This document shows, one piece after another, positions 19,039 through 34,678 of a DNA stretch of 64,000 bases. The position numbers and the translations under genes were made by a program. Location of the stretch: the NCBI RefSeq assembly GCF_005938215.1, contig NZ_VCPD01000001.1:558001-622000 (forward strand), written 5' to 3'. Numbering within the stretch: the stretch's first letter is position 1; each line of letters opens with the position of its first letter. The notes under the pieces are model-generated. The model saw only the letters and a list, made by a program, of their open reading frames with translations. It searched no databases and was not told the origin of the DNA. This DNA is from Ruegeria sediminis (GTDB lineage: Bacteria; Pseudomonadota; Alphaproteobacteria; Rhodobacterales; Rhodobacteraceae).

Positions 19039-19284
19039 CTACCCGCCCCGGAGACGCTGCATCAGGTAGACCTCGCTGCCCTCGGGGATCGGTTCGGTCA
19101 GGCCGCTGGCGATGACGCGCCCGTCTATGGCCACGGACACACCCGCGTCGATCGGCCCCTCGAGCTGCGGATAGGCCCGGACCAGTGCGCGCAGCAACTC
19201 GCCGGTGTTGGAGGCCTCGACCTCCACCACCTCGCGGCCCCCGGTCAAGGACCGGAGGCCGGACCAGAGATGGACCTCAACCAT
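19039..19284 (-). CDS. MoaD/ThiS-like sulfur-carrier protein
   Basis: 81 residues with a beta-grasp pattern and the diagnostic C-terminal Gly-Gly (VYLMQRLRGG). MoaD/ThiS proteins are thiocarboxylated at that glycine and donate sulfur. It overlaps the end of the molybdopterin-binding subunit gene by 8 bases and is the last gene of that operon, so a dedicated role in molybdenum-cofactor supply or in maturation of this hydroxylase is plausible (inference). Confidence 0.85.
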   Translation of the reverse strand: MVEVHLWSGLRSLTGGREVVEVEASNTGELLRALVRAYPQLEGPIDAGVSVAIDGRVIASGLTEPIPEGSEVYLMQRLRGG

Positions 19285-21538
19285 TGCCTTTCAGGGCCGC
19301 CAGAACGCGCGGCGGCGACATCGGCAGCTGGCGCATCCGCAGGCCCGCCGCGTTCGACACCGCGTTGGCGATGGCCGCCAGCGGCGGCACGATGCCGGTC
19401 TCTCCGACGCCGCGCACGCCGAACGGGTGGCCCGGATTGGGCACTTCGACGATCACCGTGTCGATCATCGGCAGGTCGCTGGCGACAGGAATGCGGTAGT
19501 CGAGGAAGATCGAGTTCTGCAGCCGCCCGTCCTCGCCATAGATGTATTCCTCGTTCAGCGCCCAGCCAATGCCCTGCGCCGCGCCGCCCTGGTACTGGCC
19601 TTCGACATAGGCCGGGTGGATCGCCTTGCCCGCGTCCTGAATGACGGTGTAGCGGGTGATCGTGGTCCTGCCGGTCTCGCGGTCGACCTCGGCATCGACG
19701 ATATGGGTGCCGAAGGATACGCCCGCCCCTTCGGGCGTCGCCTCGAAATGGCCCGAGATCGGCCCGCCGGTGCGCCCCATGCTGGCGGTGATCTCGGCCA
19801 GCGGCATCGGGTCGAAATCGCCGGCGTTGGGGCCCGAAGGCACGGCGCAGCCGTTTTCCCATTTCACCGCATCGACCGGGATGCCCCATTTCGCCGCCGC
19901 GCGCTCGCACAGTTTCTCGACCGCGTTGCGCGCCGCCTTGATCGTCGCCAGGCCGGACGCGTAGGTCACGCGCGAGCCGTGCGACACGTCGTTGTAGCCC
20001 AGCGTTGCGGTGTCGGCGACGGTGACGCGGATGTTCTCGTAGGGGATGCCCAGAACCTCGGCCGCCATCAGCGCCATCGACGCACGCGAGCCGCCGATGT
20101 CGGGCGTGCCCACCATGACCTGCGCCGAGCCGTCCTCGGACAGCGCCAGCGACACGCTGGTTTCGCCGCCGTGGTTGAACCAGAACCCGCAGGAGATGCC
20201 GCGGCCCTGCCCCGGCTTCAGCGGCGCCGAGTAATGCGGATGCGCCTTGGCGGCCTCCAGCGTCTCGACCAGGCCGATGCGTTCGTAGCGCGGGCCGTAG
20301 CTGGCCTTGGTGCCCTCGTGCGCGGCGTTCTTGAGGCGCACGTCGATCGGGTCGAGGCCCAGCTTGTTGCACAGCTCGTCGATCACCGATTCCACCGCAA
20401 AGGCCCCCATCGGAGCGCCCGGCGCGCGATAGGCCGCCTGTTTCGGGCGGTTGGTCATCACGTCATAGCCGACCTGCCGCACGTTGGTCAGGTGGTAGGG
20501 CGCAAAGGCGCACATGGCGGTCATGTCGCCCGGCGCGCCGGGGAAAGCGCCGCCCTGCAGGCGGAAGACCCCTTGGGCGGCGGTGATGGTGCCGTCCTTC
20601 TTCATGCCGATCCTGACATCCATCGAGGCCGAGGCGGTCGGTCCGGTGGCGCGGAACACCTCGGACCGGCTCATCACCAGCTTCACCGGTCGGTTGGCCT
20701 TGCGCGACAGCGCCAGCGCCACCGGTTCGATGAACACGGTGGTCTTGCCGCCGAAGCCGCCGCCGATTTCCGATGCGGTCACGCGCAGCTGCGAGGTCTC
20801 GATGCCCAAAAGCGCCGCACAGGTCTTTTGCACGATCCAGTGCCCCTGCGTGCAGCACCACAGCTCGCCCTTGCCGTCATTGCCCAGCGTGGCGAGGCAG
20901 GCGTGGGGTTCGATATAGCCCTGATGGGTGGCCTCGGTCACGAAATGGTCCTCGATCACCAGGTCCGCCTCGGCGAATCCGGCCTCGACATCGCCATGTC
21001 CGCTTTCGTGATAGCGCACCACGTTCGGATGCATCCCCTCGGGCACCGAATAGTCGGCGGCGCCTTCGCGGATCACCGGCGCGTCCGGCTGCATCGCCTT
21101 GTCCACGTCGGTGACATGCGGCAGCACCTCGTATTCCACCTCGATCAGCTTGAGCGCATCGCGCGCCGCCAGCGCCGAGGTCGCGGCCACCGCCGCCACC
21201 GCATGACCGTCATAAAGCGCCTTCTCGCCCGCCATGACGTTTTCCAGAACGTTCCAGAATTCGCCCTTGAGGCCCGGCTTGAACGCCACCTTGTCCGAGA
21301 AATCGGCGCGGGTGACCACCGCCTTGACGTCCTTGAGCGCCTCGGCCCTGGAGGTGTCGATCCTGACGATCCGCGCATGGGCGTGCGGCGAGCGCAGGAT
21401 CGCGCCGTGCAGCATTCCGGGCGCATGGGCATCGGCGCCGAACTTGGCCCGGCCCGTCACCTTGTCCAGACCGTCGGGACGGTCGGGCCGGGTGCCTACG
21501 AACTTGAACTCGGATTTACGGTCATCGAGCGCCATCAC
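19277..21538 (-). CDS. Molybdenum hydroxylase large subunit (xanthine dehydrogenase family)
   Basis: 753 residues. Conserved molybdopterin-binding features: GGGFGGKTTVFIEPVALALS, QAAYRAPGAPMGAFAVES and the C-terminal GVGETGIVPPLAAIANAV containing the catalytic Glu. The YRAPG loop lacks the Cys of the aerobic CO dehydrogenase active-site loop, so it is not a CO dehydrogenase. It would hydroxylate an aldehyde, purine or N-/O-aromatic compound. Coupled by a 4-base overlap to the 2Fe-2S subunit gene. Follows the reductive dehalogenase on the same strand. Confidence 0.92.
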   Translation of the reverse strand: MMALDDRKSEFKFVGTRPDRPDGLDKVTGRAKFGADAHAPGMLHGAILRSPHAHARIVRIDTSRAEALKDVKAVVTRADFSDKVAFKPGLKGEFWNVLENVMAGEKALYDGHAVAAVAATSALAARDALKLIEVEYEVLPHVTDVDKAMQPDAPVIREGAADYSVPEGMHPNVVRYHESGHGDVEAGFAEADLVIEDHFVTEATHQGYIEPHACLATLGNDGKGELWCCTQGHWIVQKTCAALLGIETSQLRVTASEIGGGFGGKTTVFIEPVALALSRKANRPVKLVMSRSEVFRATGPTASASMDVRIGMKKDGTITAAQGVFRLQGGAFPGAPGDMTAMCAFAPYHLTNVRQVGYDVMTNRPKQAAYRAPGAPMGAFAVESVIDELCNKLGLDPIDVRLKNAAHEGTKASYGPRYERIGLVETLEAAKAHPHYSAPLKPGQGRGISCGFWFNHGGETSVSLALSEDGSAQVMVGTPDIGGSRASMALMAAEVLGIPYENIRVTVADTATLGYNDVSHGSRVTYASGLATIKAARNAVEKLCERAAAKWGIPVDAVKWENGCAVPSGPNAGDFDPMPLAEITASMGRTGGPISGHFEATPEGAGVSFGTHIVDAEVDRETGRTTITRYTVIQDAGKAIHPAYVEGQYQGGAAQGIGWALNEEYIYGEDGRLQNSIFLDYRIPVASDLPMIDTVIVEVPNPGHPFGVRGVGETGIVPPLAAIANAVSNAAGLRMRQLPMSPPRVLAALKGNG

Positions 21539-22014
21539 GAAGCCTCCCGCATTTCCGCCGCCGTATCCATCACGGCGCGGATGATCTTGTCATATCCGGT
21601 GCAGCGGCACAGGTTGCCGGCCAGCCAGTACCGGGTTTCCTCCTCGGTCGGGTCGGGGTTCTTTTCCAGCAGCGCCTTGGCCGCGACCAGAACCCCGGGC
21701 GTGCAGATGCCGCATTGCAGGGCGGCATGTTCGATGAACTTCTTCTGCAGCGGGTGCAGGACGTCGCCGTCCGCCATGCCTTCGACGGTTTCGATCTTCT
21801 TGCCCTCGGCCTCGACCCCCAGCATCAGGCAGGAACAGACGAGGCGGCCATCGACCGTGACCGAACAGGCGCCGCAGTCGCCGGTGCCGCAGCCTTCCTT
21901 GGCGCCGGTCAGGTTCAGCCTGTCGCGCAGGCAGTCAAGCAGGGTCTCGCGCGGGTCGCAGAGGTAATCGACCGCGTCACCGTTGACGGTGGTGGATACG
22001 TGGATCTTGCTCAT
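21535..22014 (-). CDS. Molybdenum hydroxylase 2Fe-2S subunit
   Basis: 159 residues with both iron-sulfur clusters: the plant-type cluster EGCGTGDCGACSVTVDG with a later CSC, and the helical cluster QCGICTPGV and NLCRCTGYD. This small subunit (CoxS/XdhA-N type) carries electrons from the molybdenum site to FAD. Overlaps both neighbours by 4 bases. No export signal. Confidence 0.95.
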   Translation of the reverse strand: MSKIHVSTTVNGDAVDYLCDPRETLLDCLRDRLNLTGAKEGCGTGDCGACSVTVDGRLVCSCLMLGVEAEGKKIETVEGMADGDVLHPLQKKFIEHAALQCGICTPGVLVAAKALLEKNPDPTEEETRYWLAGNLCRCTGYDKIIRAVMDTAAEMREAS

Positions 22015-22877
22015 GCTTTTTCTCCCTTCGCGCGGGCATAGGCGATCCTGGCCGCGCGTTTGGCCAGGACGCCCGCGACCTCGGTCCGGAACTCGATGGT
22101 GCCGCGCTTGTCGTTGATCGGATTGCAGGCCGCCGAGGCCGCCGCGGCCAGGGCGTCCAGCGCCGCCTCGTCGAGCGTGGTGCCGAGGATCGCCTTGGCG
22201 CAGTCCTCGACCAAGAGAACGGTCGGCGCCACGGCCCCCAGCGACACGCGCGCCTCGGTGATCGTCTCACCGTCCAGCCGCAGGTTCACCCCGCAGCCCA
22301 CGACGGCGATGTCCATTTCGGTGCGGGGGATGAAGCGCAGGTAGGCGTCGCCTCCATTGGCGCCGCGCGCCGGCACGTTGACCGCCGAGACCACCTCGCC
22401 CTTGGCCAGCGAGGTGCGGCCCGGCGCGGTCGGGATCTGTTCGACCGGCACCTCGCGGACGCCGTCCGGGCCGGTCACGCTGATCGTCACCTCGGCGGCG
22501 ACCATCGCCGGCACGGCGTCCGCCGCGGGCGAGGCGTTGCACAGGTTGCCGGTCAGCGTCGCGCGGCCCTGAACCTGGGTCGAGCCGATCAGGTCCATCG
22601 CCTCGACCAGGCCGGGCCATTCGCGGCCCAGCTCGGGGTGTTCGCTCATTTCGGCGCCGGTCACTGCGACGCCGATGGTCCAGCTTCCGTCAGCGTTCCG
22701 GGTGATGTCGCGCACGCCGCCGATCTTCTTGATGTCGATCAGCGTATCGGGCGTCACGATGTCCGAGCGCAGCTGCACCAGAACATCGGTTCCGCCGGCA
22801 AGAAAGCGGGTCGTGCCGGTCGCCTTGGCGGCCAGCGCCGAAGCCTCGGCGAAACTGGCGGGGCTGTGGTAGTCCAT
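22011..22877 (-). CDS. Molybdenum hydroxylase FAD-binding subunit
   Basis: 288 residues from ATG 22877 (MDYHSPASFAEA). CoxM-type FAD subunit with the flavin-binding motifs FLAGGTDVLVQLRSD and TLTGNLCNASPAADAVPAMV. It passes electrons from the 2Fe-2S subunit to an acceptor. First of the M-S-L-MoaD genes; separated by 158 bases from the upstream dehalogenase gene, so it may have its own promoter or be co-transcribed. Confidence 0.92.
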   Translation of the reverse strand: MDYHSPASFAEASALAAKATGTTRFLAGGTDVLVQLRSDIVTPDTLIDIKKIGGVRDITRNADGSWTIGVAVTGAEMSEHPELGREWPGLVEAMDLIGSTQVQGRATLTGNLCNASPAADAVPAMVAAEVTISVTGPDGVREVPVEQIPTAPGRTSLAKGEVVSAVNVPARGANGGDAYLRFIPRTEMDIAVVGCGVNLRLDGETITEARVSLGAVAPTVLLVEDCAKAILGTTLDEAALDALAAAASAACNPINDKRGTIEFRTEVAGVLAKRAARIAYARAKGEKA

Positions 22878-23035
22878 GATCTTACCTCGCACCTGTGGAT
22901 CAGGAGTTCATCTGAGTTTTGGGGGACGTTAGTGCAGCAAATCCGCCGCGTCCATGACATGAACGACGGTTTTTTTCGCAACGGAATGTCGTTTCCGGAC
23001 CATGCGGGGGGTCCGGCCGCGACCGCGCCGGGGCG

Positions 23036-26000
23036 CTAGAGGTCGATCTCGATCACGCCGTTCTCGGTGGCGGCGCGGCTCTGGCAGAGGATGATCGCGC
23101 GCTCGCGCTGTTTCTTCGACAGAACGAAATCGCGATGTTCGACTTCACCCGAGATCAGGCCGCATTTGCAGACCCCGCAGATGCCGTCAGAGCATTTGAC
23201 GTCCACGTGAATCCCCGCCTCGTTCAGCACCTGGGCGGCATCCTTGTCCTCTGGCACCGCAAGCGCGCGGCCGGACCGGGCCAGTTTCAGGGTGAAGGGG
23301 CGATTCAAGTAGTCCGGCTGTTCGGGAACCGAGAAATACTCCAGATGCCGCGCCTCTTCGGGAAAGCCCTGCCGCTCGGCCGCCTGAATGACGCCGTCCA
23401 TGTAGCGGTCCGGCCCGCAGGTGTAGACGTGCCAGCCATCCCGGTATCCCGCCAAGACGGCATCCAGATCGGCGCGCGTCCCTTCGTCGGAGAAATGGTA
23501 ATGCACCCGATCCGCCCAAGGCGCATCGGCGAGGTCATCCAGGTATCCCGCCGCCGCCCGCGTGCTGGCCGAGTAATGCAGCTCGAACTCGGCGCCCAGG
23601 CTGTGCAGGCGGTGCGCGAAGGCGATCATCGGCGTGATGCCGATGCCGCCGCCCATCAGGAAGGTTTTCGCTGCCGTCTCGTCCAGTTCGAAATGGTTGA
23701 TGGGCTTCGAGATGAAGACCTTGCGCCCCTCGCTGAAGATCCGGTGCAGCAGGGCCGAACCTCCGCGCCCGGCATCCTCGCGCAGGACGCCGATCTGGTA
23801 TTTCGACCGGTCGGACGGGTCGCCGGACATCGAATACTGGCGCAGGAATTCCGGCGCCACCAGGACGTCGAGATGCGCGCCCGCCGTCCATTCCGGCAGC
23901 GGCACGCCGTTCGGCGCTTTGAACTCGTACTTGCTCACGTCCGCGGTCATCTTCTCGACCCGGGCCAGTTCGACCCGCATCACCGGCGCGTCGCCCGCGA
24001 TCCGGTAGCGATGCACGACCGAAATGTCGCCGGCAGCCAGCCGGGCCTTGTACTCATCGGCCGTCACCAACGCCTGATAGGCGGCGATCCCGGCCTCGCG
24101 GTCCATCGCGAAAGGATAGGGCCAGGGGTGCGGCGCCAGGGGGGCGGGATAGACAGCCAGCGTCTGATCCTCGTATTTCAGGTCCAGATCCCGTTGCAGG
24201 CCGCGCCGGTTCAGCGGGTGCTGGGACGGACGATAGGCGCCGTCCGGCTGCAACTCGATATCCCACCACCATTTCTTGACGTCGTTGAGGCCACCGTTGC
24301 CCACGGCATCGTCAAGCCTCGCCAGCGCCGGCGCGGCGGCGGGAATGTTCATCGCGGCCCAGCGGAAGGGGCGTTCGGCGAACAGCCCTTCGAGGTTCCA
24401 CGGGCAGGTCTTCATGCAGCGCCCGCACATCGCGCCGCCCGGGGTGGTGATCCGGTAGGTGGCGCATTTCTGGCTGTCGGATTTCCAGATCTCGTAGCCG
24501 TTGAACATCAGCTTCGGTCCGGCGGTGATCGCCCCCGACGGGCATTCCCGCGCGCATTTGTTGCAAGCCTCGCAGAATTTCTGCAGGCCGAAGTCGATGG
24601 GCCGGTCATGGCTCATCGGCATGTCGGTCGTCACCACGCCGGATTTCAGGCGCGGGCCGAGATAGGGGTTCAGGATGACCTCGCCGATGCGGCTGACCTC
24701 GCCCAGACCGGAAAGCAGCAGCAGCGGCGGCTGCAGCACCTCGCCATCCATCACCGTATGCGCCTTGGCCTTGTAGCCGAGGTTGCGGATCTGCTGCGCG
24801 ATCACGCCGCCCAGCAGCGAAAACCGCAGATAGGCGCGCATCGACTGGGCGACGCTGATCCAGTCGTCGCCCGACGCGCCTTCCATCGTCTCGTAACCCT
24901 GGTCGATGATCATGCTGACCGCCTGGTCGTGGGGCGGCACGATCCTTTCACCGGTGGCGTCGTGCGAATACCACGTCCAGTCCGGGCAGCGGCTGAGGCC
25001 GACCGCATCGACGCCCAGGAAATAGCTTGCCGCCTTGACGTTCGCCGCGTTGCGTTCGGCGTCTGTGGGTTTCGGGACGGCTGCGCTGTCGCCGTCCTGC
25101 AGCAGCACGAACGCCCCCAGCGCCCGCCGCTGGGCAAAGCTGGGCGCGGCCTTGCGGGCGTAATGGCCGCCCCTGGCCCCGTCCTGCACCGCCTTGCCCA
25201 TGTCGCCGAACTGGGCGCGGGCGAACATGTCGGCGCGTTTCGGCACGCGCGCCACGTTGGCCTCGTCGATGTAGGTGGTCGGGTTCTCGACCCGCTTGAG
25301 CTTTTCGAACGGATGCGTCCCGTCCCTGTAGCGGCGTCTGGCATAGGGGTCGCAGTTCAGCGCGTTCCTGGCAAATCCCTTGCCCAGCCACCAGGCCGGG
25401 CCTTGCGTGCGGAACCAGGGCTGCTGCGACATGGGCGCCAGCGGCCGGTCATGGGCGATCTCCATCGTGGTCGTCACCGCCGCAAGGCCGAACCGCTCGC
25501 CCAGCCAGGGCGCGACCAGCCTGCCGCCCTCGTCCGAGACCAACCCGGCCGCCACCGCCAGCCTGCCCAGATCGACATCCGACGAGGTTGCGGTATGCGC
25601 CCGCGCATCGAAACCCAAAAGGCGGATGTAGTTGGCGATCACCACCGCGTTTTCGGTCGCCAGCAGGCAGGCGCGGTGATCCTGCGCATCGAGGATCCAG
25701 TCGGAGCCCGGCTCGTCCGGGTCCGGGTCGCGGTTGTGCTGGTAGAGGAACACGATCGCGTGCCTGTGGCCGTCGATCGAGGCGGGCTCGGCCTCCATGC
25801 TGTCCTTGAGGTCGGCCATGATCAGGTCGATGCCCGAGGCCAGCGTCTTGGTCTGGCGGGTCTTCAGCGCATGGGCCAGCCGGTCGATGTCAGGGTTGCG
25901 GCGCGGTACGGCCAGCAGGGCTTCGGGCGGCAGCGGGCCGCAGCCCATCATCGAGGCATCGTTGAAATAGCCGAAGGCTTTCAGATGGTTGGCGCGTTCC

Positions 26001-26248
26001 ACCGGATCGCCGGGAATTTCCGCCCTGGCCGGGTTGACGAACCCGTCGCGGATCGCGTCCATCATCGCCTGGAACTCGCCCATCGCGTTGACGATGCTGT
26101 CCGGCCGCTCGGGGCGATGAAAGCCGAGTTCCGCCATGGGCGGCACACCCGACAGGTCCGGCACGGCACCCCGCCGCTCAAGCCGCTCCAGCGGGTAATG
26201 TCCCATGTTGACGGGCCGGTTCCTGTCCGAGAAAAAGCGGATACCCAT
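23036..26248 (-). CDS. Self-sufficient reductive dehalogenase fused to an FMN/NAD/2Fe-2S reductase
   Basis: 1070 residues from ATG 26248 (MGIRFFSDRNRPVNMGHYPL). Residues 1 to about 690 match the RdhA family: an N-terminal half (about 90-270) that resembles a second corrinoid domain (about 400-555), then two 4Fe-4S motifs, FCEACNKCARECPSGAI (first Cys about 559) and CGRCMKTCPWN (about 610). From about 735 a phthalate-dioxygenase-reductase-like module follows: FMN (RQYSMSGDP), NAD (GGGIGITPM) and a C-terminal 2Fe-2S ferredoxin (CSDGICGVCKCG). No Tat or Sec signal, so cytoplasmic. This is the BhbA-like aerobic, NADPH-driven type that dehalogenates hydroxylated haloaromatics; the substrate here is inferred. 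Divergent LysR gene at 26323. Confidence 0.9.
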   Translation of the reverse strand: MGIRFFSDRNRPVNMGHYPLERLERRGAVPDLSGVPPMAELGFHRPERPDSIVNAMGEFQAMMDAIRDGFVNPARAEIPGDPVERANHLKAFGYFNDASMMGCGPLPPEALLAVPRRNPDIDRLAHALKTRQTKTLASGIDLIMADLKDSMEAEPASIDGHRHAIVFLYQHNRDPDPDEPGSDWILDAQDHRACLLATENAVVIANYIRLLGFDARAHTATSSDVDLGRLAVAAGLVSDEGGRLVAPWLGERFGLAAVTTTMEIAHDRPLAPMSQQPWFRTQGPAWWLGKGFARNALNCDPYARRRYRDGTHPFEKLKRVENPTTYIDEANVARVPKRADMFARAQFGDMGKAVQDGARGGHYARKAAPSFAQRRALGAFVLLQDGDSAAVPKPTDAERNAANVKAASYFLGVDAVGLSRCPDWTWYSHDATGERIVPPHDQAVSMIIDQGYETMEGASGDDWISVAQSMRAYLRFSLLGGVIAQQIRNLGYKAKAHTVMDGEVLQPPLLLLSGLGEVSRIGEVILNPYLGPRLKSGVVTTDMPMSHDRPIDFGLQKFCEACNKCARECPSGAITAGPKLMFNGYEIWKSDSQKCATYRITTPGGAMCGRCMKTCPWNLEGLFAERPFRWAAMNIPAAAPALARLDDAVGNGGLNDVKKWWWDIELQPDGAYRPSQHPLNRRGLQRDLDLKYEDQTLAVYPAPLAPHPWPYPFAMDREAGIAAYQALVTADEYKARLAAGDISVVHRYRIAGDAPVMRVELARVEKMTADVSKYEFKAPNGVPLPEWTAGAHLDVLVAPEFLRQYSMSGDPSDRSKYQIGVLREDAGRGGSALLHRIFSEGRKVFISKPINHFELDETAAKTFLMGGGIGITPMIAFAHRLHSLGAEFELHYSASTRAAAGYLDDLADAPWADRVHYHFSDEGTRADLDAVLAGYRDGWHVYTCGPDRYMDGVIQAAERQGFPEEARHLEYFSVPEQPDYLNRPFTLKLARSGRALAVPEDKDAAQVLNEAGIHVDVKCSDGICGVCKCGLISGEVEHRDFVLSKKQRERAIILCQSRAATENGVIEIDL

Positions 26249-26303
26249 CGCGTGCTCCTGTTGCCGCCATTCACCTAGCCGGAAATGGACAGCAAAACCA
26301 TTC

Positions 26304-26315
26304 ATGATTAATCAT
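26304..26315. promoter_or_regulatory. Perfect 12-bp palindrome between the dehalogenase and LysR genes
   Basis: ATGATTAATCAT lies 55 bases upstream of the dehalogenase start and 7 bases upstream of the LysR ATG, in an AT-rich 74-base gap. Position and symmetry suit a LysR operator for a divergent target and autoregulation. Confidence 0.45.
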
Positions 26316-26322
26316 ATATGAC

Positions 26323-27225
26323 ATGAGCAAAATCGATTTCACCGATCTCGACGGCAAGGTCCTGCGTGCCTTTCTGACCATTCTCGAGGAAAGCTCGGTC
26401 TCCCGGGCCGCCGACCGGTTGGGCGTCACCCAATCGGCGGTCAGCCACACGCTGTCCAAGCTGCGGGCGGTTCTGGGCGACCCGCTGTTCGTGCGCTCGG
26501 GCCAGGGGCTGATGCCCACCGAGCGGGCGCTGGCGCTGAAGGACCCGGTGCAACGGGTGCTGGACGGGATGCGCGCGCTGACCGACGGGCGGCCCTTCGA
26601 CCCGCTTGGCGAAGAGATGCGGTTCCGGATCGCCGCAAACGACCTGCAGCGCGAGTTGATCTTTCCGGACCTGCTGAACGCGGCCCGCGCCGAGGGGATC
26701 CGGCTGCGGCTGAACTTCGTGCCGTCAGGTGTGCCCGACGCGACCATCCTGCGGAACGACAGGTGCCAGATGATGCTGACGCCGCTGCCGCCCGACGGGC
26801 CGGACATCTTTCAGAAGCGGCTGCTGACCAGCCCGCTGATGGTCTATTACGACGCCGGCCGCCGCGCGCCGCCGCAAAGCTGGGAGGACTATTGCGCCGC
26901 CGAACATGTCGAGGTGCGCTTTGCCGACGGGCGCAGCGCCAGCATGGTCATGCGCGGCGTGGACAGAAGCCAGATCAGGCCACCCACCGTCACCCTGCCG
27001 CATTTCAACGCCATCCCGTCCTTCGTCAGGGGCAGCGACCTGATTTCCACCGACACCGCCCTGATGAAGAAGGGTCCGCTGGCCGTGCTCGACTGCGCGC
27101 CCCTGCCCTTCGACTGCGAATCGGTGCCGATCTACATGGTCTGGCACGAACGCTCGACCGGAGACCCGGCGCATCGGTGGCTGCGGGACAGGATCGAAGG
27201 GATCGCGGCCGGGCTTCAGCCCTGA
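26323..27225 (+). CDS. LysR-family regulator, divergent from the dehalogenase
   Basis: 300 residues. Winged helix-turn-helix at about 7-65 (LRAFLTILEESSVSRAADRL then GVTQSAVSHTLSKLR), effector domain from about 90. The N-terminus most resembles NodD/LeuO/PcpR-type LysR proteins with 'SVSRAADRLGVTQSAVSHTL' (PcpR controls chlorophenol degradation; resemblance only). The very short leader, with a palindrome almost touching the start codon, suggests autorepression. Likely activator of the dehalogenase and molybdenum hydroxylase genes. Confidence 0.9.
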   Translation: MSKIDFTDLDGKVLRAFLTILEESSVSRAADRLGVTQSAVSHTLSKLRAVLGDPLFVRSGQGLMPTERALALKDPVQRVLDGMRALTDGRPFDPLGEEMRFRIAANDLQRELIFPDLLNAARAEGIRLRLNFVPSGVPDATILRNDRCQMMLTPLPPDGPDIFQKRLLTSPLMVYYDAGRRAPPQSWEDYCAAEHVEVRFADGRSASMVMRGVDRSQIRPPTVTLPHFNAIPSFVRGSDLISTDTALMKKGPLAVLDCAPLPFDCESVPIYMVWHERSTGDPAHRWLRDRIEGIAAGLQP

Positions 27226-28878: not shown

Positions 28879-30150
28879 CTAGAGACGCGCCTTGACCAGA
28901 TGGGTCAGCGCCGCGCCGGTTTCGAAAAAGGCGCGGCGCACGCCTGTCCAGCTTTCCCGGTGTTCGTCCGAGACCGGCAGCGGCAGGCGCGCCGGATCAT
29001 CGTTCAGCAGGCTTTCGGCCATCATCCGGCCGAACACCGTGCCGGGTCCGATGCCGCGCCCGGAATACCCGTGCGCGGACAGCGCGTTCGGCCCGATCCG
29101 GACGATCTTGGGAATGTGGTCCGACGTCATCGCGATGCGGCCGTGCCAGCCTTGGTCCAGGGGCTGACCGGCAAGCGCCGGAAAGATCTCGGCCAGCTTG
29201 CGGCGGATCCAGCCCCGGTGGGCAAAGCTGCCGGCATGACCCAGATCACCCATCGCCCCGATCACCAGCCGCCCGGCCTGATCCATGCGGAAGGAGGTCA
29301 TGATCAACCCGGTGTCCCAGCAGCCTTCGCCGCCCGGCAGGATCGAAGCGCGCAGATCCTCCGCCAGAGGCGCGGTCGCGTGCTGGAAGTAGTAGACCGG
29401 CACGTAGTTCTGCGCCGTGGCGGCAAGGCCGGTGTGATAGGCGTTGGTCGCCTGGATCAGCGCCCTGGTCCTGACCGATCCGCGCGGCGTGCGCAGATGC
29501 CATAGATCGCCGTCGTGCCGCAGTTCAAGAACCGGGCTTTGCGCGTGAATATGCGCACCGGCTGCGGCCGCGGCCCGCGCCAGCCCCTGCACATAGGCCA
29601 GCGGCTGGATCGTTCCCGCGCGGGGGTCGAACAGGGCGCCGTGAAAGGCGGCGCTGCCGGTGCGGCGGGCGGTTTCCTCCGCCGGCAACAGCTGGACCGG
29701 CGCCCCCGCCGCGCAAAGCTGCGCCCGGCGGGTTTCCAGATCCCGCAGCCCCGACGGCGAATGCGCCAGGTGCAAGGTGCCGTTCCGCACCGCTTCGCAG
29801 TCGATCCCATGCGTTTCGATCAGCCGGAACACCTCGGCGGGGGCCGCTGCCAGCAGGTCGATCAGCCGATCCGCCGGGCCGCGCCCCAGATGCGCGCGAA
29901 TATCCTCCGGCGGCAGCCAGAGCCCGGCATTGACCAGCCCGACATTGCGGCCCGAGCCGCCATGCCCGATCTCGCGCGCATCGAGCAGACAGACCGACGC
30001 CCCGGCCTGCGCCGCATTGAGGGCCGCCGAACAACCCGTGTAGCCGCCGCCGATAACGGCGAGGTCCACCGTGACCTCACCGTTCAGGACGGGCGTTTCG
30101 ACCCGCTCGCGGCTGGTCTCTTTCCAGAGGCTCTGGGCATGGTCGGTCAT
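28879..30150 (-). CDS. PuuB-like FAD-dependent oxidoreductase (DAO family)
   Basis: 423 residues. The N-terminal FAD motif is DLAVIGGGYTGCSAALNAAQ, with GHGGSGRNVGLVNAG downstream, typical of the gamma-glutamylputrescine oxidase/glycine oxidase branch of the DAO fold. The C-terminal SAHGYSGRGIGPGTVFGRMM is the second FAD-contact motif. Such enzymes oxidise amines or amino acids with O2, releasing H2O2. No glutamine-synthetase-like partner (PuuA) is present, so the substrate is open. Its stop is 4 bases from the convergent SDR stop. Confidence 0.87.
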   Translation of the reverse strand: MTDHAQSLWKETSRERVETPVLNGEVTVDLAVIGGGYTGCSAALNAAQAGASVCLLDAREIGHGGSGRNVGLVNAGLWLPPEDIRAHLGRGPADRLIDLLAAAPAEVFRLIETHGIDCEAVRNGTLHLAHSPSGLRDLETRRAQLCAAGAPVQLLPAEETARRTGSAAFHGALFDPRAGTIQPLAYVQGLARAAAAAGAHIHAQSPVLELRHDGDLWHLRTPRGSVRTRALIQATNAYHTGLAATAQNYVPVYYFQHATAPLAEDLRASILPGGEGCWDTGLIMTSFRMDQAGRLVIGAMGDLGHAGSFAHRGWIRRKLAEIFPALAGQPLDQGWHGRIAMTSDHIPKIVRIGPNALSAHGYSGRGIGPGTVFGRMMAESLLNDDPARLPLPVSDEHRESWTGVRRAFFETGAALTHLVKARL

Positions 30151-30196
30151 CGCGAGTCGGCCTTTCCTTCACGTCGCGGGCACATTTCAGAACTGC

Positions 30197-31231
30197 TCAG
30201 CCGGTGACAAGGGCCCTCTGATCCTCCCGGCCCATCGAAACCAGAAGCGGGGATTCGTCCTGGCGTTTCCTGAACCCGGCCTTGTCGGACATGCCGTGCC
30301 AGTTCGCCAGCACCAGCGACTGCGCCACCGCGCCGCCCAGCGTGCTGCCGGGGCCGGTGACGATGAACAGGTCGGGCGCGAATTCGCGGGCCGCCGTCTG
30401 CACGGCGCGGGTGAAATCGTAGGGCTCGGTCACCTGATGCCCCAGCGTGTAGTCCCACAGCGCGCCGGTGTCGGTCGCCCAAGGCCACCAGATCTTGCCG
30501 CGCCCGTCGATCAGCGGCAGGTCGGGCTGGCCGAACAGACCGGCGGGCAGGCGCGCGCGGCCTTCGGCCGCGACAGGCGCCTGCAAACGGGTGTGAAAGG
30601 CCGCGTGGTTGGCCAGCCGCATCGGGAAACGCTCCTGCGCAACGGGCTGCGACGCCTCGAAGGCTTTCAGCCCCGCCTCGTTCCCTGCCAGGACCACCAT
30701 GCCGCCAAGATCGATCGACAGCGCAAGGTCATGGTCGGGCAGGGCGTCGATCCGCGCCACGTCGACCAGAATTTCGGCCTTGCGCGCCGGGTCGTCGGCC
30801 CAGTCCTCGGCGGTGAAGGGATAGACCAGTTGCCCGCCGATCAGGTGCTCCTGCATCAGAGTGCCCATCGTGTTGACGACCCGGAAGCCGTTTTCGGGCG
30901 ACAGCGCCCCGGCGGCGGCTAGCGAGATGTACCAGCCCATCGAGTTGCCGGTGACCGCGACCACCTCGATGTCGTCCGCCAGCGCCTGCGCATCGGCCAG
31001 CGACGCGGCGTAGATCAGGGGCGAGGCCACGTCGCCGCGCGAATACCGGGCGACCGAGAACCGGTTCGCGCCATCCAGTTCGGTCACCGCCTCCTGCCCG
31101 GTTTCGGCGCGGATGACGTCGAATTCGCGAAACAGGTCCATCCGGTCCGCGTGGTGGCGGTGCAGGTAGCCCAGTTCGGACTTGTTGTAGGTGCCCCGTC
31201 CGGGGCAGATCACGACGGCGGTGCGGGTCAT
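30197..31231 (-). CDS. FabD-like acyltransferase
   Basis: 344 residues from ATG 31231 (MTRTAVVICPGRGTYNKSEL), overlapping the upstream E1 gene by 4 bases. Malonyl-CoA:ACP transacylase-type fold: the Ser nucleophile lies in VTGNSMGWYISLAAAGAL (GNSMG instead of the usual GHSLG), and the catalytic His in LANHAAFHTRL. C-terminal GPGSTLGGAVAQS is typical. The usual GQGSQ oxyanion loop is PGRGTY here, so it is a divergent member. It probably moves an acyl group made by the E1 protein to an ACP, CoA or another acceptor (inference). Confidence 0.82.
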   Translation of the reverse strand: MTRTAVVICPGRGTYNKSELGYLHRHHADRMDLFREFDVIRAETGQEAVTELDGANRFSVARYSRGDVASPLIYAASLADAQALADDIEVVAVTGNSMGWYISLAAAGALSPENGFRVVNTMGTLMQEHLIGGQLVYPFTAEDWADDPARKAEILVDVARIDALPDHDLALSIDLGGMVVLAGNEAGLKAFEASQPVAQERFPMRLANHAAFHTRLQAPVAAEGRARLPAGLFGQPDLPLIDGRGKIWWPWATDTGALWDYTLGHQVTEPYDFTRAVQTAAREFAPDLFIVTGPGSTLGGAVAQSLVLANWHGMSDKAGFRKRQDESPLLVSMGREDQRALVTG

Positions 31232-33417
31232 TTCGCGGCTCCGGTCAGGCTGAGGGCGGCGGCGACGATGCCGTCTTTCGACGGCAGCGGGGCGGCATAG
31301 GCGGGGCCGGTGGCGATGAAGCAATCCTCGGCCACCACGCGGGCGGCGGGAATGCCGGACTGTTCGGCAAACAGCGTCATCAGCGCCTCGGACTGGCTAC
31401 CGGTGCGGCGGCATTCGTCCACGATCAGCACGTGCTTGCAGCCTTTGGTGGCCTCCAGCAGCGCCTCGGCGGGCAGCGGGGCCAGCCAGCGCATGTCGAT
31501 GATCCGGGTCTTCAGCCCGGCGGCCTGCAGTTCGGGAAGCGCCTGCCTGGACAGGTAGTGGCCGTTGCCGTAGGTCACGATCGCCAGATCCTTGCCGTCG
31601 CCGTGAACGCCGATCTCGCCCAGCCCGATCCGCTGATCGGGTGAGGGATAGACCGTCATCCAGCCGCCATCCTGCGCCTCGTGCAGATCGCGCATCGGGT
31701 AAAGCGCGATGGGTTCCAGGAACACCACCACCCGCTGCTCCTCGCGCGCCAGCCGCACGCATTCGCGCAGCATTTGCGCGGCGTCCGCCCCGCTGGACGG
31801 GCAGGCGATGATCACGCCCGGAATGTCGCGCAGAACCGCCAGCGAGTTGTCGTTGTGGAAATGTCCGCCAAAGCCCTTCTGATAGCCCAGCCCGGCGATG
31901 CGCAGCACCATCGGGTTGGTGAACTGGCCGTTGGAAAAGAACGGCAGCGTCGCCGCCTCGCCCCTTATCTGATCCTCGGCATTGTGCAGATAGGCGAGGA
32001 ACTGGATTTCCGGGATCGGCACGAACCCGTTGTGCCCCATGCCGATGGCGAGGCCGAGGATGGACTGTTCGTCCAGAAGCGTGTCGATCACCCGGTCGGG
32101 GCCGAAACGCTGCTGCAGCTTCTGCGTGACGCCATAGACGCCACCCTTGCGGCCCACATCCTCGCCCATGCAGACGATCTCGCCATGTTCCAGCATCAGG
32201 TCGGTGAGCGCCCAGTTGATCAGGCGGCTCATCGGCTGCGGATCCTCCATCGCCCGCAGGTCGCCGCCGAACGCGGCGGCGCGCGCCTCGGCGCCGGGGC
32301 CGTTGGTGGGCTTGCAGACCCGCTTCGGCGGGATGAGGCTGGCCGCGACTTCCTGCGCGTTCGCCAGATGCGGGCGGGTCGCGGCCTGCGCCGAGATGCG
32401 GTCGGTGCGTGCGCAGGTGTCCTTGTAGATCTCAAGCGCCTGATCGGGCGACAGCGCCCCGGCCTGGTCCAGCAGGCGCACGCTGTGCAGCAACGGATCG
32501 TTGGCCTCGTCGGCCTCGACCTCGACCTTGCTGAGATAGGTGGTCGGAACGTCGGCCCCCGCATGGCCATAGAGCCGCACGGTCTTCAGGTGCAGGAAGG
32601 CGGGCTTGCGGCGGGTGCGGACATAGTCGGCGGCCTGCCGCGCCACCGCGTAGGTCTCGAAGATGTCCAGCCCGTTGGCCTGGAAATACCTGATCCCGGG
32701 CCGGTGCTGCATCGACGCCTGGATCCACCCCTTGGGCGTTTTCACCGAAATGCCGATGCCGTTGTCCTCGCAGACGAAGAGCAGCGGCAGCGGAATGGAC
32801 TGCACGCTGGTCCAGCCCGCCGTGTTGATCGCCCCCTGCGCGGTCGAATGGTTCGCCGAGGCATCCCCGAAAGAGCACATGGCGATGCCGTCCTCGGGCA
32901 GCTGCCGATGCTCGGGCGGGTGCCGCCGCGCCGCGCCAAGGCTGTAGGCCGCGCCGACCGCCTTGGGCAGGTGGCTGGCGATGGTCGAGGTCTGCGGCGG
33001 GATCGTCAGCGCCCTGGACCCCAGAACCTTGTGCCGCCCGCCCGAGGTCGGATCCTCGCTGGAGCATGCAAAGCTCAAGAGCATGTCCCAGGCGATCTGC
33101 TGGCCCGGCACCTGATCGGCGCGGGCGATCTGAAAGGCCGCGTCGCGATAGTGCAGGAAGGCGATGTCGGTCGGGCGCAGGGCATGGGCCACCGCTGCCA
33201 TGCCTTCGTGCCCGGACGAGCCGATGGTGTAGAACCCCTGCCCCGCCTTCTGCATCGCCCGGCTGGTGCGGTCCAGCGCGCGGCTGAGCACCTGCGCGCG
33301 GTAAAGCGCCACCGCCTCCGGGTTGCTCAGCCCGGGCAGCGGCGGCGCGCCGCCCGGCAGGTCGCGGCTGGCGACCCGGGAAAGGAAGTTCTCGTGAACG
33401 ATCTGGGCGCGGTCCAT
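31228..33417 (-). CDS. Fused alpha-beta 2-oxoacid dehydrogenase E1 (TPP-dependent)
   Basis: 729 residues from ATG 33417 (GTG at 33420 is in frame; GGGGA precedes). Residues about 20-350 are E1-alpha: AFLHYRDAAFQIARAD, and the TPP motif FGDASANHSTAQGAINTAGW ending in VCEDN. Residues about 385-729 are E1-beta: EIVCMGEDVGRKGGVYGVT, then LDEQSILGLAIGMGHNGFVP. It decarboxylates a 2-oxo acid, probably branched-chain type. No E2 or E3 gene is nearby; instead a FabD-like protein overlaps and an aminotransferase precedes it by 24 bases. Confidence 0.88.
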   Translation of the reverse strand: MDRAQIVHENFLSRVASRDLPGGAPPLPGLSNPEAVALYRAQVLSRALDRTSRAMQKAGQGFYTIGSSGHEGMAAVAHALRPTDIAFLHYRDAAFQIARADQVPGQQIAWDMLLSFACSSEDPTSGGRHKVLGSRALTIPPQTSTIASHLPKAVGAAYSLGAARRHPPEHRQLPEDGIAMCSFGDASANHSTAQGAINTAGWTSVQSIPLPLLFVCEDNGIGISVKTPKGWIQASMQHRPGIRYFQANGLDIFETYAVARQAADYVRTRRKPAFLHLKTVRLYGHAGADVPTTYLSKVEVEADEANDPLLHSVRLLDQAGALSPDQALEIYKDTCARTDRISAQAATRPHLANAQEVAASLIPPKRVCKPTNGPGAEARAAAFGGDLRAMEDPQPMSRLINWALTDLMLEHGEIVCMGEDVGRKGGVYGVTQKLQQRFGPDRVIDTLLDEQSILGLAIGMGHNGFVPIPEIQFLAYLHNAEDQIRGEAATLPFFSNGQFTNPMVLRIAGLGYQKGFGGHFHNDNSLAVLRDIPGVIIACPSSGADAAQMLRECVRLAREEQRVVVFLEPIALYPMRDLHEAQDGGWMTVYPSPDQRIGLGEIGVHGDGKDLAIVTYGNGHYLSRQALPELQAAGLKTRIIDMRWLAPLPAEALLEATKGCKHVLIVDECRRTGSQSEALMTLFAEQSGIPAARVVAEDCFIATGPAYAAPLPSKDGIVAAALSLTGAAK

Positions 33418-33441
33418 CACATGTCCCCGGTATCTGGTCGA

Positions 33442-34608
33442 TTACAGTTTGGCGGTCGCGTCCGCGATGCGGCGCAGCCCTTCTTGCAGGCTTTTCGTGG
33501 CATAGGCGAAGGACAGGCGCAAATGCCCAGGCATCCCGAAGGCCCGCCCAGGCACCAGCGCAACGCCCGCCTCGTCCAGCAGGTACCGGCAGAATTCGTG
33601 ATCCACCGGCATTTTCGCCGGCGTCCTCGGGAACGCGTAGAACGCCCCGTCCGGCAGCGCGCAATCGAGCCCGGCGTCGTTCAGCCCCCGGACCACCAGG
33701 TCGCGCCGCGCCCGCATCTCGGCCCGGCGTTCCGCCAGCAGATCCTGCGGACCGGTGATCGCGGCAAGCGCCGCCGCCTGCGCGATGGAGCAGGCGCCCG
33801 AGGTGATCTGTCCCTGCACCTCGACCATCGCCTTGATCAGCGGCGCGGGGCCGATGCCCCAGCCGATCCGCCAGCCGGTCATGGAATAGGCCTTGGAAAC
33901 GCCGTTCACCGTCAGGGTACGGCCCGCCAGCGCGGGAACCGCCTGAACGAACGGAGTGAAGGGGACATAGGCAAGATGCCGATAGATCTCGTCCGAGATC
34001 ACCCAGACCTGGGGATGCCTTTCCAGCACCGCGCCCAGCGCCTGCAGTTCGGCCTTGGAATAGACCGCGCCCGTGGGGTTCGACGGCGTGTTGAGCAGCA
34101 GCCAGCGGGTGCGCGGGGTGATCGCCGCCTCCAACTGGACCGGCGTCAGCTTGAACCCCTGCGCAGGCGGGCAGTCCAGCACCACCGGCACACCGCCGGC
34201 CAGTTTCACCATGTCGGCATAGCTGGTCCAGAACGGCGCGGCGGCGATCACCTCGTCGCCCGGATCGAGCGAGGCGAGGAACGCGCCCGCCAGCACCTGC
34301 TTGGCCCCGGTCGAGACGATCACGTTCGCGGGCTCCGCCCCGGCCTCGGCGGCGATGGCGGCGCGCAGCGCGGGCGTTCCGGCGGTGGGCGGGTAACGGG
34401 TCTGCCCGTCCTGCGCCGCCCGGTGCGCGGCCTCGACCACGTGCGGCGGCGTCGGAAAATCGGGTTCGCCGGTGCTGAGCGCGATCACGTCCACGCCCTG
34501 CGCCCGCAGTTGCGCCGCGCGTTCCGTGATCCGCACGATTTCAGACAGTTCGATCCCGTCAAGCCGCCCGGCCCGGCGGAACCCGCCCAAGCTGTTCTGA
34601 ATGGTCAT
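33442..34608 (-). CDS. Class I/II PLP-dependent aminotransferase
   Basis: 388 residues from ATG 34608 (MTIQNSLGGFRRAGRLD). Fold type I motifs: STGEPDFPTPPHV, NTPSNPTGAVYS, VISDEIYRHLAY and the PLP-Lys motif NGVSKAYSMTGWRIGW. This is the aspartate/aromatic subgroup 1-gamma layout. It interconverts an amino acid and a 2-oxo acid, and in this operon it could supply the 2-oxo acid for the following E1 protein. Divergent from a LysR gene. Confidence 0.92.
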   Translation of the reverse strand: MTIQNSLGGFRRAGRLDGIELSEIVRITERAAQLRAQGVDVIALSTGEPDFPTPPHVVEAAHRAAQDGQTRYPPTAGTPALRAAIAAEAGAEPANVIVSTGAKQVLAGAFLASLDPGDEVIAAAPFWTSYADMVKLAGGVPVVLDCPPAQGFKLTPVQLEAAITPRTRWLLLNTPSNPTGAVYSKAELQALGAVLERHPQVWVISDEIYRHLAYVPFTPFVQAVPALAGRTLTVNGVSKAYSMTGWRIGWGIGPAPLIKAMVEVQGQITSGACSIAQAAALAAITGPQDLLAERRAEMRARRDLVVRGLNDAGLDCALPDGAFYAFPRTPAKMPVDHEFCRYLLDEAGVALVPGRAFGMPGHLRLSFAYATKSLQEGLRRIADATAKL

Positions 34609-34678
34609 GGCATCCTCGCTGTGCAACCCTGGCCGTTTCCGCCCTTCATCGCGCTGGATCAATGCGAATGCCAGTGAT

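Follow-up and report, generated by a model that had tools for sequence, protein, structure and literature searches.

The locus: a fused dehalogenase gene and its divergent neighbour

The window analysed here is a stretch of 64,000 nucleotides from Ruegeria sediminis, and all coordinates are positions within it. It carries rdhA, a gene for a reductive dehalogenase that has its own reductase module in the same chain, and, facing away from it, the LysR-type regulator gene LysR1. An earlier note on this DNA had proposed an alphaproteobacterial host, which agrees both with the genus and with the nearest relatives of rdhA, which are Ruegeria sequences. The features that matter are the following.

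23036..26248, minus strand: rdhA, self-sufficient RdhA-PDOR fusion reductive dehalogenase of 1,070 amino acids (TIGR02486, matches to NpRdhA and 2pia, catalytic residues and motifs, substitution rates)
26255..26259, minus strand: AGGAG, likely ribosome-binding site of rdhA (read from the sequence)
25439..25768, minus strand: vestigial copy of the B12-binding domain, residues 161-270 (internal match to residues 440-551)
24596..24931, minus strand: active copy of the B12 domain with Y473, the predicted proton donor, and K535, residues 440-551 (alignment with Y426 and K488 of NpRdhA)
24404..24574, minus strand: two 4Fe-4S motifs with R599 between them, residues 559-615 (motif scan)
23048..23983, minus strand: phthalate-dioxygenase-reductase-type module (FMN, NAD(P), 2Fe-2S), residues about 756-1067 (match to 2pia, motifs)
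26323..27225, plus strand: LysR1, divergent LysR-type regulator, predicted to be dedicated to rdhA (PF00126, PF03466, pairing in the genus)
26286..26318, no strand assigned: conserved operator- or promoter-like block with the palindrome ATGATTAATCAT at 26304-26315 (intergenic alignment)

The rdhA reading frame is real and under strong purifying selection. Its ratio of non-synonymous to synonymous substitution rates lies between 0.061 and 0.119 in the 18 of 20 congeneric copies compared (L020, one codon longer, and L016, which begins with FYS and not FFS, were left out), so that it is a gene under selection and not a chance frame. We place the start at the ATG at 26248 because an AGGAG lies just 5′ of it (26259-26255), because homologues measure 1,044-1,089 amino acids among the 120 matches listed, and because the alternative, longer start, the ATG at 26305, falls within the conserved intergenic block and is thus unlikely. 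Facing rdhA, the plus strand too has an open frame of 1,047 amino acids (23135-26278), most likely as a by-product of the high GC content (0.67) and codon usage.

The earlier note had described a complete protein, uniting an RdhA module, two 4Fe-4S motifs and an FMN/NAD/2Fe-2S reductase, and had called for searches with the RdhA and phthalate dioxygenase reductase families. These searches agree with it. The reductive dehalogenase model TIGR02486 scores 192.4 bits, above its curated cut-off of 160.35. In the PDB the protein matches NpRdhA, the dehalogenase of Nitratireductor pacificus (E 3.8e-156), and the same chain also matches phthalate dioxygenase reductase, 2pia (E 4.1e-57; numbered on a version of 1,089 amino acids, from which 19 is subtracted to obtain residues of the 1,070-residue protein). 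PF13486 has no match in the genome and is absent from the Pfam list for the window, a miss that is uninformative because 14 control genomes are equally silent. The note had also raised two doubts, that the N-terminal half might lie outside RdhA, with epoxyqueuosine reductase, or that catalytic residues might be lost. Neither is borne out: this half is RdhA, while the QueG model TIGR00276 reaches only 23.4 bits against a cut-off of 200, and the residues are retained. F342, S469, M470, Y473, K535 and R599 are identical to F291, S422, M423, Y426, K488 and R552 of NpRdhA. All six stay the same throughout 200 aligned rows, made up of 80 family loci and of 120 database proteins that include the window protein, and so do the eight cysteines of the 4Fe-4S motifs (CX2CX2CX3C at 559-569; C595 with CX2CX3C at 608-615).

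In the reductase module we find RQYS at 803 and GGGIGITP at 866, which we take to bind FMN and NAD respectively, then CX4CX2C at 1019-1027 together with C1055, the fourth 2Fe-2S cysteine, invariant in sets of 13 and of 38 rows. Residues 161-270 repeat residues 440-551 (41 of 112 identical, E 1e-16), with a cysteine, in the alignment, in place of Y473 of the active copy. Such a vestigial duplicated B12 domain is described as a hallmark of catabolic RdhAs (PMC10463259). The N-terminus, MGIRFFSDRNRP, shows no twin-arginine motif when read by eye, no predictor having been run, which is in line with the signal peptide being absent, as the earlier note had it. An AlphaFold model made from 38 sequences (mean predicted local distance difference test, pLDDT, 72.2; predicted template-modelling score 0.67) has NpRdhA chains as its first 14 matches in the PDB (best E 1.3e-49; template-modelling score 0.83 by target length), and its reductase part matches 2pia (E 3.4e-27).

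LysR1, presented in the same note as the enzyme's own regulator, is a real and divergent gene. A close orthologue (76% or more) is present in 34 of 38 genus genomes, that of R. sediminis included, and in all 34 it is divergent from rdhA across a gap of 73-77 bp. The sole genus genome without rdhA, G006, is also without LysR1. In two genus genomes there is one more relative, at 58-60%, in another place. Conservation of the intergenic region is uneven: over 23 distinct sequences, 19 of the genus and four of other genera, it averages 0.84 in the half on the LysR side vs 0.60 in the half on the rdhA side. Within the region lies the dyad ATGA-N4-TCAT, which is without mismatch in the window and three other sequences; LysR proteins favour such dyads. 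The model for BsrA-type LysR proteins, NF050187, gives 131.7 bits, below its cut-off of 480. It is likely that LysR1 regulates rdhA. The open-licence PMC literature searched yielded no description of a fused RdhA with a LysR-operator unit dedicated to it, which is weak evidence of absence.

Distribution and genomic context

In Ruegeria the fusion is near-fixed; it is common in the family and uncommon in the class, as the counts tell. Class-wide, 31 of 385 sampled genomes match, nine with the full-length fusion (five of them in this family, the present genome included); the other 22 matches cover the RdhA part alone, some at a contig end. In the family, sampled as 394 genomes with almost one per genus, 152 match at E 1e-100 or better and, among the matches listed, all but six (G199:C272, G400, G159, G162, G329 and G347) span at least residues 8-1040. 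In the genus, a match over at least residues 4-1070 is found in 37 of 38 genomes (36 of 37, plus G103), G006 being without. The earlier statement that this design is much rarer than the anaerobic respiratory type finds no support in this group, by counts that covered the fusion. The breadth itself is not new, since PMC13101508 already describes putative homologues of bhbA as widespread across the Roseobacter clade; our counts add scale. The fusion is carried by eight of 72,556 plasmid records, including an 822-kb Ruegeria plasmid, two Tritonibacter records and a 60-kb Jannaschia plasmid. One congener, G030, holds three full-length copies (89, 72 and 69% identical to that of the window), so that paralogues or acquired copies exist. 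A full-length copy, 73% identical, lies in a metagenome-assembled genome labelled Granulosicoccaceae (L296), a gammaproteobacterial family; it is either a distant transfer or a binning error.

Strict vertical inheritance of rdhA is not supported: the trees of rdhA and rpoB for 70 genomes share four of 67 splits (11 of 81 genomes were left out, their rpoB being not found, fragmentary, not fetched or not searched). As noise controls, each gene was divided into two parts, whose trees shared 11 and 17 splits for rpoB and 10 and 17 for rdhA. The noise is large, yet the two genes differ beyond it, which fits repeated transfer between genera. Transfer does not appear to be free, however, as the distances of the two genes correlate (Mantel r 0.39; the highest of 999 permutations gave 0.35).

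A conserved catabolic neighbourhood across the family was not found in 81 loci (80 fetched and the window; about 8 kb on each side, crude caller of open reading frames, 40% identity, single linkage), the commonest neighbour cluster other than rdhA occurring in eight. No report of this scattered context was met in the same literature search, again weak evidence of absence. A DUF3572 gene is the first downstream neighbour in five of 79 loci, with no functional link seen. What stands upstream is in some loci a regulator, of changing kind; in some genera a MarR-type gene directly precedes rdhA. Among the 80 fetched loci the first upstream neighbour is of MarR type in nine of 79 and of LysR type in six of 79, while LysR1 itself is held by six, four outside the genus and two inside. 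Ten upstream genes were scanned again: seven are of MarR type, six co-directional with rdhA and one divergent, and three have no match. One MarR family precedes rdhA on the same strand, at 4-31 bp, in five loci (L112, L113, L115, L118 and L119), and on the Jannaschia plasmid a divergent MarR gene lies 81 bp from rdhA, which is followed by a LysR gene. These regulators beside rdhA, LysR and MarR alike, may sense halophenols. The enzyme has the look of a one-gene function that is portable and meets different regulators, LysR in Ruegeria and MarR elsewhere.

Downstream of rdhA in the window lie genes that we judge to be outside its unit.

19277..22892, minus strand: three-subunit molybdenum hydroxylase (FAD subunit 22011-22892, 2Fe-2S subunit 21535-22014, molybdenum subunit 19277-21538)

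The trio resembles xanthine dehydrogenase and 4-hydroxybenzoyl-CoA reductase, always below equivalog cut-offs, and its large subunit was present in six of six genus genomes checked, the present one included. A scan for intrinsic terminators found none between rdhA and the trio; the single site that it gave lies elsewhere in the stretch scanned. No cobalamin riboswitch was matched in the window, where two tRNAs are the sole RNA matches. In G006 the trio is directly followed by the DAO, Fab-like and E1 genes, with rdhA, LysR1, LysR2 and the SDR (short-chain dehydrogenase/reductase) gene all missing; the hydroxylase FAD gene and the DAO gene are there about 135 bp apart (locus L146, 7990-8126). 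LysR2 and the SDR gene are also missing from some congeners that have rdhA. In the window, 28879-34662 (minus strand) holds a run of genes for an oxidase of DAO type that resembles L-pipecolate oxidase but scores below cut-off, for a protein that matches no Pfam family at 1e-10, for a 2-oxoacid dehydrogenase E1 with its two parts fused, and for an aminotransferase; together they look like a cluster for amine or amino-acid breakdown. Part of this run is also found near rdhA in Seohaeicola (L274).

Predicted activity and competing readings

With good confidence, resting on sequence likeness, we propose that this fusion is an NADPH-dependent enzyme that would remove bromine or iodine from ortho-halogenated phenols, and that the divergent LysR protein likely controls its gene. 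The closest guide is JtRdhA of Jhaorihella thermophila, which we equate by organism name and description with protein P0052, 83.1% identical over 1,069 columns. Its study reports that JtRdhA uses NADPH to debrominate and deiodinate phenols and is active in air, with a kcat of 600 per min and tight coupling to NADPH, that the chlorinated compounds tested inhibited it and none of them was converted, and that it enabled Escherichia coli W to grow on 3-bromo-4-hydroxyphenylacetate (PMC10463259). The window protein and JtRdhA both have valine at the position of NpRdhA 419, where BhbA, the dehalogenase of Comamonas sp. 7D-2, has serine and NpRdhA alanine. Because the pocket follows JtRdhA and not BhbA or NpRdhA, a JtRdhA-like range of halogens is the best guess. 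Transferred from NpRdhA and JtRdhA, the mechanism would run as follows. Hydride from NADPH would reduce FMN, from which electrons would pass singly, through the 2Fe-2S and the two 4Fe-4S clusters, to base-off cobalamin. The phenol oxygen would be held by S469, K535 and R599, and the halogen in ortho position would bind to cobalt. The carbon would then receive its proton from Y473, which K535 tunes. Roles for the corresponding S422, K488, R552 and Y426 of NpRdhA are given in PMC7565698. Activity, halogen range and inducer are what we infer from these likenesses. In the genome pobA, hmgA and BluB each score above cut-off, on contigs other than that of rdhA; because of pobA and hmgA the products of dehalogenation could be used, perhaps as carbon, through routes of the 4-hydroxybenzoate and tyrosine type.

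Several observations weigh against one part or another of this proposal. P0052 is equated with JtRdhA (WP_104007082) by organism name and description. At NpRdhA position 311 the window protein has alanine where JtRdhA has valine, and at 307 the alignment is unstable, giving alanine or glycine according to the alignment chosen. The structural model is of moderate quality, and residues 500-528, just before the catalytic K535, have a pLDDT below 50. The genes scanned between 15973 and 35641 include none that was recognised as serving the breakdown of aromatics. As for the regulator, rdhA occurs without LysR1 in three genus genomes (G012, G022 and G027), and LysR1 relatives were found (E 1e-70) in only eight of 394 family genomes, by a search that scored six candidates per genome, so that misses are possible; six of these, at 73% or more, adjoin rdhA, and two, at 50-54%, are on other contigs. 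The regulator claim is for this reason limited to the Ruegeria group. The dyad, too, is perfect in just four of the 23 intergenic sequences, with five of six pairs kept in ten, four in seven and three in two.

Other readings have been weighed against the same evidence. That the natural targets are chlorinated hydroxyaromatics, dechlorinated as pollutants by the same machinery, would accord with NpRdhA, which has the same catalytic residues and is reported to reduce chlorinated compounds (PMC10463259), and with the name of 3-chloro-4-hydroxyphenylacetate reductive dehalogenase precursor borne by three database relatives among the matches listed. The behaviour of JtRdhA and the likeness of the pocket to it speak the other way and make this unlikely; because no chlorinated compound tested was a substrate for JtRdhA, we regard the chlorinated substrates named by the earlier note as the less likely ones. 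A halogen-free reduction, as in epoxyqueuosine reductase, would draw on the weak QueG match, and can hardly be reconciled with the score of the dehalogenase model, with substrate-binding residues identical to those of NpRdhA and with a close relative that is a measured debrominase. One might also see in the molybdenum hydroxylase, 143 bp downstream on the same strand, a partner of rdhA in a dehalogenation-hydroxylation operon, all the more as the FAD subunit is next door to rdhA in 19 of 20 genus loci and the trio occurs in 24 of 80 named loci. We rejected this unit because the trio stays in G006 without rdhA, and because rdhA and LysR1 stay without a nearby trio in L050, L051 and L053; a common pathway appears quite improbable.

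There is more to be said for the view that the enzyme mainly detoxifies natural bromo- and iodophenols, or recycles their halide, and does not serve carbon supply, the phenol product being incidental. This reading is compatible with the predicted chemistry and is a real possibility, though we lean somewhat away from it. Among the first neighbours of rdhA (79 upstream and 79 downstream; the 25 commonest of 92 and 88 families respectively) no aromatic-breakdown family recurs, PF01494, which includes some aromatic hydroxylases, appearing once on each side, whereas BhbA adjoins protocatechuate dioxygenase genes; near-universal presence in the genus would fit a general protective trait. The presence of pobA and hmgA in the genome argues the other way.

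To return to debromination and deiodination of phenols under LysR1, a wider picture can be sketched, tentative though not far from an even chance in our judgement. Dehalogenation in roseobacters would be a portable one-gene function, a self-sufficient enzyme in need of no neighbour, moving between genera and replicons under any phenol-sensing regulator; in Ruegeria it would have settled as a near-core switch of two genes, LysR1 and rdhA over a conserved operator, sensing natural bromo- or iodophenols. Most of what is known about reductive dehalogenases comes from anaerobes of polluted places; here the complete fused form is near-standard in one marine genus, of which laboratory strains exist. 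If the proposed activity holds, bacteria of seawater would debrominate and deiodinate natural phenols routinely, ordinary aerobic marine heterotrophs would have a constant share in the cycling of bromine and iodine, and LysR1 with its operator would make a ready-made bromophenol sensor.

Relation to known dehalogenases and regulators

The parallel LysR and MarR genes beside rdhA recall BhbR1 (LysR) and BhbR2 (MarR) of Pigmentiphaga kullae, both reported to answer to 3-bromo-4-hydroxybenzoate (PMC12016517). This pair may serve as a precedent for the swapping of regulators at rdhA. It differs in that BhbR1 and BhbR2 control hydroxylase operons, not an RdhA, and we liken BhbR1 to LysR1 by type.

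Among the enzymes, P0042 of Ruegeria pomeroyi, 84.2% identical, is a same-genus orthologue. A protein of R. pomeroyi DSS-3, AAV93904, which may be the same as P0042, appears in a published tree legend (PMC10463259); functional work on the R. pomeroyi RdhA was not found in the open-licence PMC literature searched. NpRdhA (PDB 4ras, 6zxu) is 46.2% identical over 502 columns. It has the catalytic residues in common with the window protein and, as PMC10463259 has it, also a vestigial B12 domain; it differs by being without the reductase module, according to the same source, and by a pocket made of A419, K307 and F310.

BhbA, encoded on plasmid pBHB, is likewise a full-length RdhA-PDOR fusion, 51.8% identical over 1,063 columns with the same set of F291, S, M, Y, K and R, so that the BhbA-like design put forward by the earlier note stands. 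The two proteins differ at the positions of NpRdhA 290, 310, 311, 419 and 452, and their genes differ in setting: bhbA, on a conjugative plasmid, adjoins protocatechuate 4,5-dioxygenase genes and a gene for a transporter binding protein, whereas rdhA of the window has its divergent LysR gene. JtRdhA shares with the window protein the order of domains, the catalytic residues and the valine at 419, in the pocket for a second halogen. The design has already been characterised: the enzyme of R. sediminis belongs to the kind known from JtRdhA and BhbA.

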